This document shows, in pieces, positions 3,612 to 37,558 of a stretch of 64,000 nucleotides of DNA. Numbering within the stretch: the stretch's first letter is position 1; each line of letters starts with the position of its first letter. Source of the stretch: Thermococcus chitonophagus (GTDB taxonomy: Archaea; Methanobacteriota_B; Thermococci; Thermococcales; Thermococcaceae). The stretch lies in NCBI RefSeq assembly GCF_002214605.1, contig NZ_CP015193.1, positions 310,001 through 374,000 of the forward strand, in the 5' to 3' direction. The position numbers and the translations under genes were made by a program. Below the pieces are notes generated by a model. That model ran no database searches, was not told the origin of the DNA, and saw only the letters and a program-made list of their open reading frames with translations.

Positions 3612-3961
3612 ATTTTGTTAATTTCTCTATCAATTCTCTTTTATATTTGGCATTTTTCATGTCTATATCTAAACCTGTGCAAAAATTTTTCATTATAGGG
3701 GTTCGGGGCTATTGGGTGGAGCCCCCGAATAAGGGGGCGAAAACCCAGGGGTCAAGACGGCGGCGTCGGGGGGATTGGGGGCAAAGCCCCCGGCATGAAC
3801 CCCGCCCTCCTCCCCTGGGTATAGCAAGATGCGCTCCCGAGGAAAACCCCCGAAATGGGGGGACCCCTCGGGGGCAAGGCAGGCCCGACACCCCGGTCAA
3901 ACCCCCGGACGGGGAATTGGTACTCCCCCGCGTGGGGAGTTCCACCGGCCGTACTCCCTTA
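3612..3961 (+). promoter_or_regulatory. rRNA operon promoter region and transcribed 5' leader
   Basis: The first ~85 bases are AT-rich and hold TATA-like tracts (TTTATATTT about 3640; AAAAATTTTT 3681-3690). Composition switches sharply to GC-rich at about 3698, suggesting the transcript starts close to 3700. The rest is a structured leader with G/C runs, and 3876-3914 is the 5' strand of the 16S processing stem. The open reading frame through this leader is not a gene. Which TATA tract is used cannot be decided by eye. Confidence 0.6.
3876..3914 (+). other. 16S processing stem, 5' strand (bulge-helix-bulge)
   Basis: This strand pairs with 5469-5506. The outer helix is AAGGCAGGCCCGACACCCC with GGGGTGTCGGGCCTGCCTT, 19 bp without mismatch; the inner helix is CCCCGGACGGGG with CCCCGTCCGGGG. 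Between them a short GGUC/GACU helix is flanked by AAA on each strand, which is the bulge-helix-bulge recognised by archaeal splicing endonuclease. The 5' side has one extra C compared with the ideal 3-4-3 form. Confidence 0.85.
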
Positions 3962-5457
<1,496 letters not shown>

Positions 5458-5714: not shown

Positions 5715-8760
<3,046 letters not shown>

Positions 8761-29710: not shown

Positions 29711-30076
29711 ATGAAAATTGGAAAGACTTTGCAGGTAATTGGGGTCATTGTGGGGGTTTTGTTCTTTGCGCTGGCTTATCTAAAAGTTGGTGGGTGGGTT
29801 TATTTTCTAGCTCTGGCTTCAATTGGGCTGATATACTTTGGGACTGTTTTAGACGCCTTTGAGAACTACAGCGGAAACGCTAGAAAGTTCAGGATACTTG
29901 AGGTAACGATGATCTTGCTCTGTGCGCTCTCCTTTGCGTTTGTGAGTGACTACACTCACTCAACGGCCCTTGGAATCGCTGTGAGTGCTCCTTTTTTAGT
30001 TCTAGCAGGTTACTTCGGAAATAAAGTTAAGGAAAAGAAAACCATTGAGGTCACAATTCTCATGGGTAAATTCTAG
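29711..30076 (+). CDS. Small four-helix membrane protein, unknown
   Basis: A 121-residue protein with about four hydrophobic segments (about residues 8-24, 28-46, 62-78, 84-103) and a basic C-terminal tail. I do not recognise a family. TATA-like TATTTTTAAGG at about 29678-29688 places the transcription start near the ATG, so the mRNA may be leaderless. The end overlaps the AsnRS gene on the other strand by 17 bp. Confidence 0.65.
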   Translation: MKIGKTLQVIGVIVGVLFFALAYLKVGGWVYFLALASIGLIYFGTVLDAFENYSGNARKFRILEVTMILLCALSFAFVSDYTHSTALGIAVSAPFLVLAGYFGNKVKEKKTIEVTILMGKF

Positions 30077-31364
30077 CCGGAGTCCTTGGGAAGAGGGTGG
30101 CCCACCTTATGTGGTCAAGCTTCAGAACCCACGCAACCAGCCTCTCAACGCCTAAACCAAAGCCGCTGTGCGGCACTGAGCCGTACTTCCTCAGGTCAAG
30201 GTACCACTCGTAGTCTTTGGGATCCATTCCTTCCTCTATTATCCTCTGAACGAGCTTATCGTAGTTGTCTTCCCTCTCCGATCCTCCGATTATCTCTCCG
30301 TAGCCTTCCGGAGCTAGCATGTCTGCAGCTAACACTTTCCTGGGATCCTGGGGATCTTCCTTCATGTAGAAGGCCTTAATGTGCTTTGGATAGCCGTAAA
30401 CGAAAAACGGCCTGTCAAACTCCTCCGTAAGAACTCTCTCTTCATCTGCTCCCATGTCATCTCCCCACTCAATATTCACGCCTTTGCTCTGAAGGATCTC
30501 TATGGCCTCATCGTAGCTTATCCTCGGGAACGGTGGCTCTGTGTTTTTCAGCGTTGTTAAATCGTCCCTAAACATCTCTATCTCCTTTTTTCTAAGCTCG
30601 AGCGTTCTCTGAACCATGTAGCTCACTAGTTCCTCCTCAACTTTCATTATGTCCCAGAGATCCATCCAGGCCCCTTCAAGCTCCAGGTGCCAGAACTCGG
30701 TTAGGTGCCTTCTGGTCCTGCTCTTCTCTGCCCTAAAGCTTGGAGTTAGTGACCAGACCTTCTCGAGGCCGAAGATTGCAGCCTCCAAATATAGTTGAGC
30801 GGATTGGCTTAGATAGGCGTACTTGTCGAAGTACTTGAGTTTGAACAGGGTTGCTCCTCCTTCTACAGCCCCAGTTACTAGTATTGGTGGGAATACTTCA
30901 TGCCATCCGTTCTTCAGGAGCCAATCTCTCGCCGCCATAATCAGGGTTTCCTTGACCTTCATTATAGCTGAGACCTTGGGTGTTCTTATGTGGAGGTGCC
31001 TATAGTCGAGCAACAACTCGGGACTTGCCTGCTCTGGGTTCTCAGGGATTGGAAACTCACTCACAGCCTGTATTACCTCAAGCTTTTCAACGTGGACTTC
31101 TGCCCCTCCTGGGGCCCTCTCGTCGGCTTTAACTATTCCCTCCACTATAACGCTTGACTCTCTCCCGAGCTTCTTGGCCTTTTCGAAAACCTCATCTCCA
31201 ACTACGTTTTTGGCAATTACAGTCTGAACTATTCCAGTTGAGTCCCTAATCCACAGGAATATCTTCTTGCCTACCCTCATGTTGCTGTATACCCATCCCG
31301 CGAGCCTGACCTTTTGGCCGTCGAGTTCTGGTTTTACCTCTTCACAGTATGTCTTCTCGATCAT
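30060..31364 (-). CDS. asnS: Asparaginyl-tRNA synthetase (AsnRS, class IIb)
   Basis: A 434-residue class IIb synthetase. An OB-fold anticodon-binding domain (about residues 1-105; VRLAGWVYSNMRVGKKIFLWIRDSTG) is followed by the catalytic core with motif 2 FRAEKSRTRRHLTEFWHLE and motif 3 GFGLGVERLVAWVL. By overall resemblance to known Pyrococcus enzymes I call it AsnRS; AspRS is the closest alternative. ATG 31364 has GGTGATGCTC upstream. The TATA box CTTATATAG (minus strand) lies at about 31402-31410. Convergent with the small membrane protein gene. Confidence 0.88.
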   Translation of the reverse strand: MIEKTYCEEVKPELDGQKVRLAGWVYSNMRVGKKIFLWIRDSTGIVQTVIAKNVVGDEVFEKAKKLGRESSVIVEGIVKADERAPGGAEVHVEKLEVIQAVSEFPIPENPEQASPELLLDYRHLHIRTPKVSAIMKVKETLIMAARDWLLKNGWHEVFPPILVTGAVEGGATLFKLKYFDKYAYLSQSAQLYLEAAIFGLEKVWSLTPSFRAEKSRTRRHLTEFWHLELEGAWMDLWDIMKVEEELVSYMVQRTLELRKKEIEMFRDDLTTLKNTEPPFPRISYDEAIEILQSKGVNIEWGDDMGADEERVLTEEFDRPFFVYGYPKHIKAFYMKEDPQDPRKVLAADMLAPEGYGEIIGGSEREDNYDKLVQRIIEEGMDPKDYEWYLDLRKYGSVPHSGFGLGVERLVAWVLKLDHIRWATLFPRTPARIYP

Positions 31365-31399
31365 GAGCATCACCTTAACTGGGCCTTCTTCTTGACCCT

Positions 31400-31412: not shown

Positions 31413-31450
31413 TTCGGTTATTTGTTCAAAATTTTCCAAGAATATTTGTC

Positions 31451-31578
31451 AAAAAAGCAGGTCAGCGAAGGGCGTGGTCATCATCTTCTCAGCAAAGCAA
31501 AAGCTCTTCATCCCCTGTAGGCCCGGCCGGAACCCCCGGTTCACGATTCCCCGGAGAGGGCGGGAGCCGGGCCCATGC
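31451..31578 (-). ncRNA. Composite H/ACA - C/D box guide RNA
   Basis: A GC-rich island in AT-rich DNA, read on the minus strand. First an H/ACA hairpin (31574-31516): lower stem GGGCCCGGC/GCCGGGCCU (9 bp), pocket arms UCCCGCCC and UUCCG, upper stem UCUCCGG/CCGGGGG, a GGAAUCGUGAA loop that could be a K-loop, then ACA at 31518-31516. The pocket fits 16S GGAA-UU-GGCGGGG, predicting pseudouridine at 4840. Directly adjoining is a C/D RNA: C box GGAUGA (one change), 15-nt guide, D' CUGA (31492-31489), C' AUGAUGA (31484-31478), 12-nt guide CCACGCCCUUCG, D CUGA (31465-31462), and a CAGG/CCUG terminal stem. The two guides pair with 23S 5925-5935 and 5766-5777, predicting methylation at G5928 and G5770. 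A T6 run ends it. Confidence 0.85.
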
Positions 31579-31595: not shown

Positions 31596-31610
31596 AAATA
31601 TAAAACTTTG
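31596..31610 (-). promoter_or_regulatory. TATA box for the composite guide RNA
   Basis: On the minus strand AAAGTTTTATATTT is a strong archaeal BRE/TATA-like element. Its spacing places the transcription start at about 31578, exactly where the GC-rich guide RNA begins, supporting a dedicated promoter. Confidence 0.6.
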
Positions 31611-31682
31611 CGAAATCTGTATAAACTTCAAATGCTTAGAAATTTTTAAGGCTCCTCTTCTGGGGCCTTGGAGGTGTTAAGT

Positions 31683-32684
31683 TTGAAAAAATTTGTTGTA
31701 TTGTTGGCCCTTGCAGTCGCTGTTCTAACGATCAGCGGCTGTATTGGGGGTAACGTTCCTACCAAAATACCTACGGAATCAGAAGTTCAGGAGACAACGA
31801 CCCAGGAAGAGAGTACCCAGTCAGAAACCCAGGAAGATTATGGGTCTTGGGCTTCTCCTTGGGATGTTTCCAAGCCCGTAGAACTTGACGGTAAAAAGTA
31901 CTACATAACTTCCCTGAAGTACGAGTACAGGATTAGGTATCCGGGATCTGGGGAAGTTAAGGAGTACACGGTAATAAAGGAGAGGAAAAAGACGAAAATA
32001 GAAGTTTATGGTTCCAACTTCAACTCCGAGAGTGGTGAGATTGAGAAAGTTAGGGTTGGGGAGTATGAGGTCTACGAATACTACACGAAACTCATCCCCA
32101 AGAGCGGGGATGTACTTGAGGTTTACGTTTGGACGAACGGTGAGTCCGACGTTATGGACATGTACTTCACTTTCCCCGTTCCGGCCACAATGATATTTGC
32201 AGGTCAGAACTTCGTTGCTATAAGACTCGTCAGCGGAGACAAAATTTATGAGATGTACAATCCTGCCGGCGTTGGAAATTACAATTACATGCCTTATGAA
32301 AATGGGGATCTTGGCTGGTTTGCCAATTCGGAGGAAGTTGAAAACTTATATGGGAGCTTTTTCGCAGTGTATCAGTTTCCGTTTTGGTCGGCTTTGGAAG
32401 AGGAGAACCTTTACACACCTGCTGAAGAGTCGTTCTCTTACATGGGCATATCTTACAACTACAGGATAACTCCCCAGGGTACAGTTGTAGTTGCCGGCCA
32501 TAAATTCAGGACTTCAAAAGTTGAGTGGACGTACTCCTTTACTGGTCAGGGTAGTGCGAAAGGTTATGCTGTGCTCACTTCATCTCTTCCGATTCCATTG
32601 CAGCTTGAGGGAGTATTTGTTCTTCAAGATAAAGCTTGGTATGCCTATATGAAGCTCCTTGATATTGGCCTTAAAGAGGCCTGA
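31683..32684 (+). CDS. Putative exported lipoprotein, unknown function
   Basis: A 333-residue protein starting at TTG 31683, six bases after GGAGGTG. It has a short basic N-terminus, a hydrophobic segment and a lipobox LTISGC, with Cys at about residue 18 as the likely lipidated residue. Then comes a Thr/Ser/Gln/Glu-rich linker (about residues 25-55), typical of archaeal surface lipoproteins, and a beta-rich C-terminal domain with many Tyr residues. I do not recognise the family. TATA-like AAATTTTTAAGG lies at about 31638-31649. Convergent with aglB across the C/D sRNA at 32710-32775. Confidence 0.75.
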   Translation: MKKFVVLLALAVAVLTISGCIGGNVPTKIPTESEVQETTTQEESTQSETQEDYGSWASPWDVSKPVELDGKKYYITSLKYEYRIRYPGSGEVKEYTVIKERKKTKIEVYGSNFNSESGEIEKVRVGEYEVYEYYTKLIPKSGDVLEVYVWTNGESDVMDMYFTFPVPATMIFAGQNFVAIRLVSGDKIYEMYNPAGVGNYNYMPYENGDLGWFANSEEVENLYGSFFAVYQFPFWSALEEENLYTPAEESFSYMGISYNYRITPQGTVVVAGHKFRTSKVEWTYSFTGQGSAKGYAVLTSSLPIPLQLEGVFVLQDKAWYAYMKLLDIGLKEA

Positions 32685-32709: not shown

Positions 32710-32775
32710 GGAGAAGGGGATGATGAATTTTTCCCTCACTCTGAGCTGTGATGAGGAGCCGATGCTCTGACCTCT
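32710..32775 (+). ncRNA. C/D box sRNA guiding two 23S methylations
   Basis: Boxes are nearly ideal: C AUGATGA (32720-32726), D' CTGA (32741-32744), a 3-nt spacer, C' GTGATGA (32748-32754), D CTGA (32767-32770). The D guide GGAGCCGATGCT pairs with 23S 6164-6175 over 12 bp including one G-U, predicting methylation of U6168 by the box-D-plus-five rule. The D' guide ATTTTTCCCTCACT pairs with 23S 6217-6226 over 10 bp, predicting A6220. The two targets are 52 nt apart. A TATA-like ATATTTTTAAATTTTT at 32687-32702 would start transcription at about 32712. The RNA lies antisense to the last codons of aglB, which ends at 32736. Confidence 0.88.
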
Positions 32776-35651
32776 CCTAGTATGTACTGCTTCTCTGCTA
32801 TAAATACTGGTTCAACTCTGATTCCCCTTATTATCAATTTGTCTCCGTACTTCTTCTTGAGTTCATCTTTGTAATTGGAGATTATGCCCTCGGGCATTTT
32901 CGCATTTGCAATGATGATGTTGTCATCTCCCTTGTGTAGCTCTACTCCAGACTTAACCTTTGTAGCGAAGAATACATCCATGTGTGGTTCGAATGCAGCG
33001 TTGTAATCGTCGTTGCTCTTGCCACCCTCCCTCACGAGGTATATGAAGGTGACTCTTAAGTACAAGTCAGCTTTGTAGTCTTTGTGTACTCCGACTTTCA
33101 ATTCGAGCTTCCCTGACTGTCCCTCGTTTAGTATCCTTATTGGATTGGCTATTTCTCCATTCACTTTTGGGGGTCCGGTAAGAACTCCGACTGGGCCTTT
33201 CTGAACGAGTATGAACCTGTACTTCTCTGCTTGCGGTAGCGTGACGTTAACTACTATGGGGGTCTCGTGTAAGTGGTTCATGTATTCGATTCTTCCTATT
33301 TCAATCCTTTTGACGTTAGTACCGTTTACAGCCTCCACATAGAGCGTTGCATTCCTAATGTCCCTTCCGAAGGCTGAGATGTAGAGTTTTAGCGTATGAG
33401 TACCTGGGGTTAGACTAGTTATTGTCTTCCACGTGCCATTAACGAGCTCCTGAATCTTATATATTGCAAATGGGGTAAACTTATACACAATGACGTTTCC
33501 ATACTGGTAGACTGGTCTGAAGTTTGAAAATAGCTTCTCGGTAAATTCGGGCTCTTTTGACGCGGGGATACCGTAAGCGAGTTTTAGGAAGTTGCTTGTG
33601 GCAACTTTGTAGTAAGTCATGATCGCCATGTTTGGCAAGATGTAGACGATGTACGGGAAGCTACCTCCGTTATCACAGGCCCCTGTCCCTTTAAGCTTTT
33701 GATTTCCTGGGATGAAAACCGTTAGCATGGGACTACACTCTGCGGATCCTATCCTAACCCTGACCGAAGTATTCAAAATCTGGATAGAAATTCTCATGTA
33801 TGGATTTATGTACGCCTCACCGAACTTTGGAACTGGTATAATTGTTGAAACCTGGCCTCTCCCTTCTTCATCCCCCTGGTATTCTTTCCTTGTTATTGCG
33901 CCGCCGAGGTAGCTTATTGCATTGAACTTCACCCAATCGTTGAGGTATATTAGGAAATAGTTGAGCTCCCAGCTTTCAAAGTCCACCTCGCTAATGTTGC
34001 CATCTCTCGCTAAGAATAATGCGAGGATATGATCTCTATCTCTTGCGTGTCCTCCATCTGCACTGGCCCTTCTGTTTCCTAGTAGGCTCGACTCTATCCA
34101 ATATCCATAATCCCACCATGACGTTGCTGTGGAGTACTTTGGTGTATTGTCCCTCAGCCACTTTAGCACTTGTTCCCATCCTGTCGTTTCGACCTCTGTC
34201 TTGCTGATGGCCTTAGCTGATCTTGCAAGAACAGGGCCATTTGTTAAGGGGATTAGGAGAACCATTATTGAGACAACTATTGCAAATGCAGCTTTTATCC
34301 CTATATTCTCTTTCATCTTCTCAACGATTTCGAGGGCATATCCTATTGAAGCTCCCGCAAATATCGCGATCGCATAGCTTGCAAGGAATAGGAATCTAAC
34401 CGCTAGGGACATTAGGTATAGGGACATTATGTAGAATATTATTCCGAGGAGCTCTTTATGCTGGCTTTCCCCTCTTTTCCAGAGTCCGACTATATACGCT
34501 ATGGCCATTGCCAGGAATCCTGGGATGCTGAGGAAGAATATCAGTCCATTCCCCTTCTCTACTCCATAATACGCTTTTACATCGCTCATCCTAGTCTTAG
34601 CGAGTTCCTGAACTGTCTGGTAAACTTGAGTTGATTGATATGCACCACCCATCAATCTGAAGAGCTTTGGACCAACGTAGGCGTATGCCCCTGCAAATCC
34701 TATAAGGACTATGATAGCAACAACTGCAAATCTGTGCTTTTTATCTGAGTAGTTGAGGTACTTCCCGCCGTAGAGCATCACTACTGCGAGGAATATCAGT
34801 CCTAGGTAAACTTCAAATGCAAACCTAACAAACCCCTGTATCCTTGATATTCCTGGGATTGTGAGGAGATACGCAACGATTAAGATGGCCAAATATGCTG
34901 GATAAAATTCTTTGACAAACTTTTTTACCTCCTCAATCTTTCCAAAGATAAAGAGTGCGATTGTCTGTAGGGAGGCAAACCCAATGAGGACCATAAGTCC
35001 AAAGGGAGATCCGTTCCATGCGGCAGTTGAAAGTGATGCTAGGCCAACAAAGAGTACTCCCCACACAATTTTCTTCCTTGTGCTGGTCTCATATAGGTAG
35101 TACAGCAGTGCCACTAGGGAGAAGGTGAATATCATCATGAAAGGCCCATCACCTCTTGCGTTTCCTGAGAACGTTCTTGAGAAGTTCGCGGTTGAAACTG
35201 CCAAGATTGCCGCTGCCCACAGTCCGGTCCAGTCGTTGACTAATTTTCTTCCAAGCAGATAAACTCCCAGGATACTTAGGAAGCCTACAAAGGGTGGCCA
35301 TAGGAGAAATGCCTGGAATTCATTATATCCAAATACCGAGATGATCTTGTAAAATGTCGCGGGAAGAAGGTAAAGACCAAGGGGTTCTGCAATTAGACTC
35401 CCAAACGGTGCATCAGAGAGCGGATAATATTTAGGCAGACCTTCTTTCAATACTAACTTGTAAATTTCAAAGTGATAGAAGGTGTCAGGATCTGGGAAGT
35501 ACTTTCCGGCTGTTAGATGCCTTATATGGAATCCATACCACGCAAATATAAGTGTCAGGATAAGAGTAATTCCAGCTTTTAGTGTTGGATATTTAGCTAT
35601 AAGCTTTGATGTCTTTTGTTTCTCTTCTTCTTTTTCTTTAACCTTAACCAC
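32736..35651 (-). CDS. aglB: Oligosaccharyltransferase AglB (STT3 family)
   Basis: A 971-residue membrane enzyme that moves a lipid-linked oligosaccharide to Asn in N-x-S/T sites at the outer face. About 13 membrane helices fill residues 1-475. A metal-binding DPD motif is at about 54-56 and a GDGP-type acidic loop is near 167. The soluble domain has WWDYG (512-516), the signature of sequon binding, and the DK-type motif D572-x-x-K575-x-x-x-I579, which marks the archaeal/eukaryotic form. GTG 35651 has GGAGGTG five bases upstream. It begins 12 bp after glmS ends, so both are one operon. Its 3' end lies under the C/D sRNA on the other strand. Confidence 0.95.
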   Translation of the reverse strand: MVKVKEKEEEKQKTSKLIAKYPTLKAGITLILTLIFAWYGFHIRHLTAGKYFPDPDTFYHFEIYKLVLKEGLPKYYPLSDAPFGSLIAEPLGLYLLPATFYKIISVFGYNEFQAFLLWPPFVGFLSILGVYLLGRKLVNDWTGLWAAAILAVSTANFSRTFSGNARGDGPFMMIFTFSLVALLYYLYETSTRKKIVWGVLFVGLASLSTAAWNGSPFGLMVLIGFASLQTIALFIFGKIEEVKKFVKEFYPAYLAILIVAYLLTIPGISRIQGFVRFAFEVYLGLIFLAVVMLYGGKYLNYSDKKHRFAVVAIIVLIGFAGAYAYVGPKLFRLMGGAYQSTQVYQTVQELAKTRMSDVKAYYGVEKGNGLIFFLSIPGFLAMAIAYIVGLWKRGESQHKELLGIIFYIMSLYLMSLAVRFLFLASYAIAIFAGASIGYALEIVEKMKENIGIKAAFAIVVSIMVLLIPLTNGPVLARSAKAISKTEVETTGWEQVLKWLRDNTPKYSTATSWWDYGYWIESSLLGNRRASADGGHARDRDHILALFLARDGNISEVDFESWELNYFLIYLNDWVKFNAISYLGGAITRKEYQGDEEGRGQVSTIIPVPKFGEAYINPYMRISIQILNTSVRVRIGSAECSPMLTVFIPGNQKLKGTGACDNGGSFPYIVYILPNMAIMTYYKVATSNFLKLAYGIPASKEPEFTEKLFSNFRPVYQYGNVIVYKFTPFAIYKIQELVNGTWKTITSLTPGTHTLKLYISAFGRDIRNATLYVEAVNGTNVKRIEIGRIEYMNHLHETPIVVNVTLPQAEKYRFILVQKGPVGVLTGPPKVNGEIANPIRILNEGQSGKLELKVGVHKDYKADLYLRVTFIYLVREGGKSNDDYNAAFEPHMDVFFATKVKSGVELHKGDDNIIIANAKMPEGIISNYKDELKKKYGDKLIIRGIRVEPVFIAEKQYILGEVRASAPHHSSE

Positions 35652-37497: not shown

Positions 37498-37558
37498 AAG
37501 TGTGATGATGAGCTGGATCCGAGCTGAATTATGATGAGGGAGGTTTAAACTGAGCAAC
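37498..37558 (+). ncRNA. C/D box sRNA, target unresolved
   Basis: Canonical boxes on the plus strand: C GTGATGA (37502-37508), D' CTGA (37524-37527), 3-nt spacer, C' ATGATGA (37531-37537), D CTGA (37550-37553), with guides TGAGCTGGATCCGAG and GGGAGGTTTAAA. I could find no rRNA match as long as for the other two RNAs. The best by eye are 8 bp of the D' guide to 16S about 5223-5230 and 8 bp of the D guide to 23S TTTAGACC near 8410, both weak. A tRNA target elsewhere is possible. AT-rich ATAATATTTTAT at 37478-37489 could be its TATA region. It overlaps the 3' end of the metallopeptidase gene in antisense. Confidence 0.82.

Follow-up and report, generated by a model that had tools for sequence, protein, structure and literature searches.

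The composite guide RNA snoR9 of Thermococcus chitonophagus and its distribution in Thermococcales

A GC-rich island of the Thermococcus chitonophagus genome is flanked by asnS (30060-31373, minus strand) and by a lipoprotein-like gene that is read divergently (31668-32684, plus strand). Does this island encode one RNA that carries both an H/ACA and a C/D guide module, as the original prediction proposed, and is such an RNA already known? A cmscan search of the window (the whole 64,000-nt stretch of DNA analysed) returns a full-length match to the Rfam family RF00065, snoR9, at 150.6 bits (E 8e-36, model positions 1-128 of 128), which exceeds the Rfam gathering score of 90 bits. The predicted boundaries agree with the match to within a few bases (Table 1). 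snoR9 is single-copy across the 1.96-Mb genome. The locus is almost certainly orthologous to snoR9, the composite guide already known from Thermococcales and composed of the C/D RNA sR9 and the H/ACA RNA Pab21, with three rRNA targets.

The prediction had left it undecided whether the RNA was already described. It was: snoR9 is catalogued as RF00065 and was described in Pyrococcus years earlier (PMC2241582 and PMC4652768). The 2015 report equates Pab21 with RF00065 and places it at 230,449-575(-) in P. abyssi (PMC4652768); the orthologue that we located in one genome (G004:C1:230449-230575(-)) has identical coordinates. Reconstitution of Pab21 with L7Ae, Cbf5 and Nop10 gave an RNP with pseudouridine synthase activity (PMC3726423, 2013), which was low in vitro (<50% of substrate; PMC3726423). 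The P1 strand of published Pab21, GGGCCCGGC, is identical to that of the window, and the published substrate has a U after the target U, in agreement with 16S 4840-4841 (PMC3726423). Module order, boxes and guides are the same as in the Pyrococcus and Thermococcus members of RF00065, with ordinary species-level changes only. It is the P. abyssi copy that diverges in the C/D stem and box C, more than the T. chitonophagus copy does from other relatives. The locus is thus an ordinary gene, correctly recognised: a reader with sequence only was able to recover a true composite guide RNA plus its three targets. What the present analysis adds is the comparative distribution.

Table 1. Features of the snoR9 locus and its rRNA targets, in window coordinates
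Feature	Position	Strand	Basis
TATA-like promoter element TTTTATAT, ~27 nt upstream of RNA 5' end	31599..31606	-	sequence
Composite guide RNA snoR9 / sR9-Pab21 (RF00065), full length	31448..31574	-	cmscan
H/ACA module (Pab21), 59 nt	31516..31574	-	covariation; own model R1, 85.4 bits
H/ACA P1 (9 bp)	31566-31574 with 31519-31527	-	covariation
H/ACA 5' guide UCCCGCC, pairs 16S 4842-4848	31559..31565	-	complementarity
H/ACA P2	31551-31556 with 31534-31539	-	covariation
H/ACA K-loop	31540-31550	-	
H/ACA 3' guide UUCC, pairs 16S 4836-4839	31529..31532	-	complementarity
ACA	31516-31518	-	
Box C AUGAAGA (relatives: AUGAUGA or AUGACGA)	31505..31511	-	alignment
D' guide GCUUUUGCUUU, pairs 23S 5925-5935	31494..31504	-	complementarity
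Box D' CUGA	31489..31492	-	pairing analysis, alignment
Box C' AUGAUGA	31478..31484	-	pairing analysis, alignment
D guide CCACGCCCUUCG, pairs 23S 5766-5777	31466..31477	-	complementarity
Box D CUGA	31462..31465	-	pairing analysis, alignment
T6 tract after C/D stem, possible terminator, poorly conserved	31451..31456	-	sequence
16S target GGAAUUGGCGGGG, predicted pseudouridine U4840	4836..4848	+	complementarity; invariant in 50 genomes
23S site paired by D guide, G5770 predicted to be 2'-O-methylated	5766..5777	+	core GAAGGGCGUGG kept in 50/50 genomes
23S target of D' guide, predicted 2'-O-methyl G5928	5925..5935	+	invariant in 50 genomes

In the transcript sense, the H/ACA hairpin comes 5', and its ACA runs directly into the terminal stem of the C/D module. 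The hairpin has the anatomy of an archaeal H/ACA guide, namely a 9-bp P1, a pocket, a GA stem with a K-loop, and an ACA 14 nt from the stem base. The spacing given for archaeal H/ACA sRNAs is 14–15 nt from the GA stem (PMC4652768). The two strands of the pocket flank the unpaired UU of 16S GGAA-UU-GGCGGGG through 4 + 7 pairs, one of them G-U, with the first U at 4840, as the original prediction had it. This pairing is not significant by itself and was rejected as proof, because 101 of 2000 shuffled guides (~5%) equal the 11-pair match; the assignment of U4840 as the predicted pseudouridine is carried by the invariance of the target and by the literature.

The C/D module contains boxes C, D', C' and D and a terminal stem, together with two guides of at least 10 nt that obey the fifth-base rule. 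Specifically, the D guide forms 12 contiguous Watson-Crick pairs with 23S rRNA and places its fifth base from box D opposite G5770, while the D' guide forms 11 contiguous pairs, skips one base beside box D', and places its fifth base opposite G5928. Both pairings are as originally claimed, and both nucleotides would be 2'-O-methylated in T. chitonophagus. Among k-mers drawn from the window outside the rRNA operon, a perfect sense match in mature rRNA occurs for 0.024% of 12-mers and 0.091% of 11-mers. Across 50 Thermococcales rRNA operons, all three target sites are essentially unchanged; what varies is confined to the margin of the D site and a single base outside the H/ACA site. In several g3 genomes (L053 in G028, L054 in G040, L057 in G033, L058 in G039, L059 in G044, L049 in G038, L050 in G025 and L175/L176 in G054 and G064), the normally short D'-C' linker of sR9 is ~11–18 nt longer; in many cases it is GC-rich and contains an inverted repeat (e.g. 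ACCGCGCTTCGCGCGGCGTCG). It looks as if the internal K-loop had turned into a stem-bearing K-turn. The Rfam scores of these loci are lower because of the longer linker.

The alignment of 49 composite orthologues (44 distinct sequences) supports the fold. Over the 44 distinct Thermococcales sequences, 97.5% of the cells in P1, P2 and the C/D stems hold standard pairs, a figure that falls to ~60% when partners are slid by one column. Two-sided changes occur in 10 of 19 pairs, compared with 4.5 ± 1.2 in shuffled alignments (0 of 500 as high). Roughly half of the species have C-G in P2 where the others have G-C. This alignment had been suggested as a check for compensatory changes, and together with the full-length RF00065 match and the guide pairings it bears out the composite guide. 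The folding energy of the single sequence was discarded as evidence, being uninformative at such GC content (z = 0.22 against shuffles).

One detail of the proposed fold holds less widely. The C/D module was said to be closed by a CAGG/CCUG stem that borrows from the ACA. Such a stem is possible in the T. chitonophagus copy; as a general feature it fails, with C59-G121 pairing in 6 of 44 sequences, A60-U120 in 9 of 44, and 18% of cells paired for these two ACA-borrowing pairs. The usual closing stem is GGG(G) with CC(C/U)(C), which is paired in 98.1% of cells. The ACA-sharing CAGG/CCUG stem is therefore lineage-limited at best. In genus g5, the final A of the ACA adjoins the G-rich strand and could form the third stem pair, and the alignment suggests that partial sharing between ACA and C/D stem may be real in some lineages.

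Both modules probably leave the locus in one transcript. The TATA-like element lies at the right distance from the RNA start, as predicted, and a crude consensus scan finds such an element, centred between −24 and −32, in 44 of the 56 composite orthologues. The predicted T6 end is present in the window and is not conserved in most relatives. In G054, the C/D box immediately follows a stop codon, a layout that many archaeal C/D genes are reported to have (PMC7994747). For P. abyssi, the 2015 annotation documents one RNA that covers both modules (PMC4652768), in line with the single transcript that had been proposed. A short RNA would run from the start of the H/ACA hairpin to just past the C/D stem. 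The hairpin would load Cbf5-Nop10-Gar1-L7Ae and direct pseudouridylation of 16S U4840, while the C/D part would load L7Ae-Nop5-fibrillarin and direct 2'-O-methylation of 23S G5770 and G5928.

Located 5' of asnS in the same orientation, the island also overlaps an open frame of 60 aa, as would be expected of a protein-coding remnant or of an asnS terminator or regulatory element with no guide RNA at all. Covariation and the conservation of guides and targets refute this explanation, and the RNA is kept while the neighbouring genes vary among relatives; we regard it as having virtually no chance of being correct. Alternatively, two guide RNAs with their own promoters might merely be adjacent, as the C/D part stands alone in many Thermococcales and archaeal C/D RNAs are often matured out of whatever transcript contains them (PMC7994747). 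However, box C lies only a few bases past the ACA in all composite orthologues, which leaves no room for a second promoter, and most of these orthologues have the TATA-like element ahead of the H/ACA part; with the P. abyssi transcript spanning both parts, two independent genes are very improbable.

A less distant alternative is that the single transcript is cut, giving a Pab21 H/ACA RNP and a C/D RNP (possibly circular), each acting on its own. The modules have been lost and kept independently in evolution, and the short distance between the ACA and the C/D stem may cause crowding between the two RNPs. Against this, the annotated P. abyssi RNA includes both modules (PMC4652768), and no evidence of processing was found. 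We lean against cleavage while granting it a substantial chance.

The two modules differ in their distribution. The RF00065 score is above the Rfam cut-off in 59 of 94 Thermococcales genomes. In the loci read, the C/D half is near-universal in Thermococcales, with both guides nearly unchanged, while every g1 genome and most genomes of both g3 and g5 carry the H/ACA half. At the locus, this half is missing from the g2, g4 and g6 genomes read and from G041, G054, G064 and G067 of g3. G066 (g3) retains only a 3' fragment. In two g5 genomes (L056 in G091 and L062 in G092), the 5' half of the hairpin (GGCCCAGCTCCCGCCCTCTCCGCGGAACAGTGAAG) remains next to an intact C/D module and the 3' half is missing or broken; this remnant is a relic of decay, an H/ACA pseudogene inside a live C/D gene. 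A pattern search allowing two mismatches found neither half in G034 (g3), a complete 1.5-Mb genome with intact 16S and 23S target sites. No match came from the further genomes of the phylum that we searched.

The H/ACA half thus occurs in the g1+g3+g5 clade, where it has undergone loss or decay on several occasions. Genomes that lack the fusion yielded no free-standing Pab21: the weak off-locus matches that were fetched and classified all belong to Pab40, Pab35, Pab91 or Pab105. A loose DNA pattern for another guide with the Pab21 pocket gave background only, equal to its reversed control. In a tree of the 16S-23S region, g2+g4 (C/D only) separate from g1+g3+g5, and the remaining losses are dispersed within the latter group; being midpoint-rooted, the tree is compatible with both gain and ancestral presence of the H/ACA half. 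We tentatively propose, at slightly less than even chance, that the fusion was a lineage-specific gain in which a Pab21 unit joined the older, near-universal sR9 in the ancestor of g1+g3+g5, followed by repeated loss or decay with no free-standing copy, and that a base common to the ACA and the C/D stem in some members of the clade may link the two RNPs. If the H/ACA half was gained in this way and repeatedly lost with no free-standing copy, some Thermococcales would have both methylations without the pseudouridine. The C/D-only genomes, the decaying H/ACA remnant and the genome with neither half are natural 'knock-outs' that make the need for the 16S pseudouridine testable. In the outgroup g6, locus L157 (G093:C6) carries an HgcE/Pab105 RNA; the upstream hairpin of this RNA reaches 40 bits with the Pab21 model, has CUCGCCCU on its pocket side, and might be the source of the Pab21 hairpin or related to it.

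U85, a composite scaRNA of eukaryotes, has its H/ACA part placed within the C/D stem. snoR9 is built differently, in tandem, with H/ACA followed by C/D. CAB motifs direct U85 to Cajal bodies, and its target is snRNA, whereas the guides of snoR9 match rRNA in archaea, which have no Cajal bodies and are not known to have spliceosomal snRNAs. A comparison of the two gives no sign of common descent. What they have in common is that methylation and pseudouridylation guide domains are joined in one RNA (PMC4041459). Among archaeal guides, Pab40/HgcG, Pab35/HgcF, Pab105/HgcE, Pab91 and Pab19 likewise consist of a single-hairpin unit with K-loop and ACA; they differ from Pab21 in pocket and target, and joining to a C/D RNA is not recorded for them in the literature surveyed.

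One of these, Pab19 (RF02794, 114.8 bits), is also encoded in the window, at 3721-3823(+), just upstream of the 16S rRNA and probably within the rRNA leader. snoRNA Tko-19 is reported to occupy the equivalent place in T. kodakarensis (PMC4247193). The window contains two further C/D guide RNAs (snoPyro_CD, sR49), at 32716-32773(+) and 37501-37555(+), the former overlapping the 3' end of a minus-strand gene (32736-35651).
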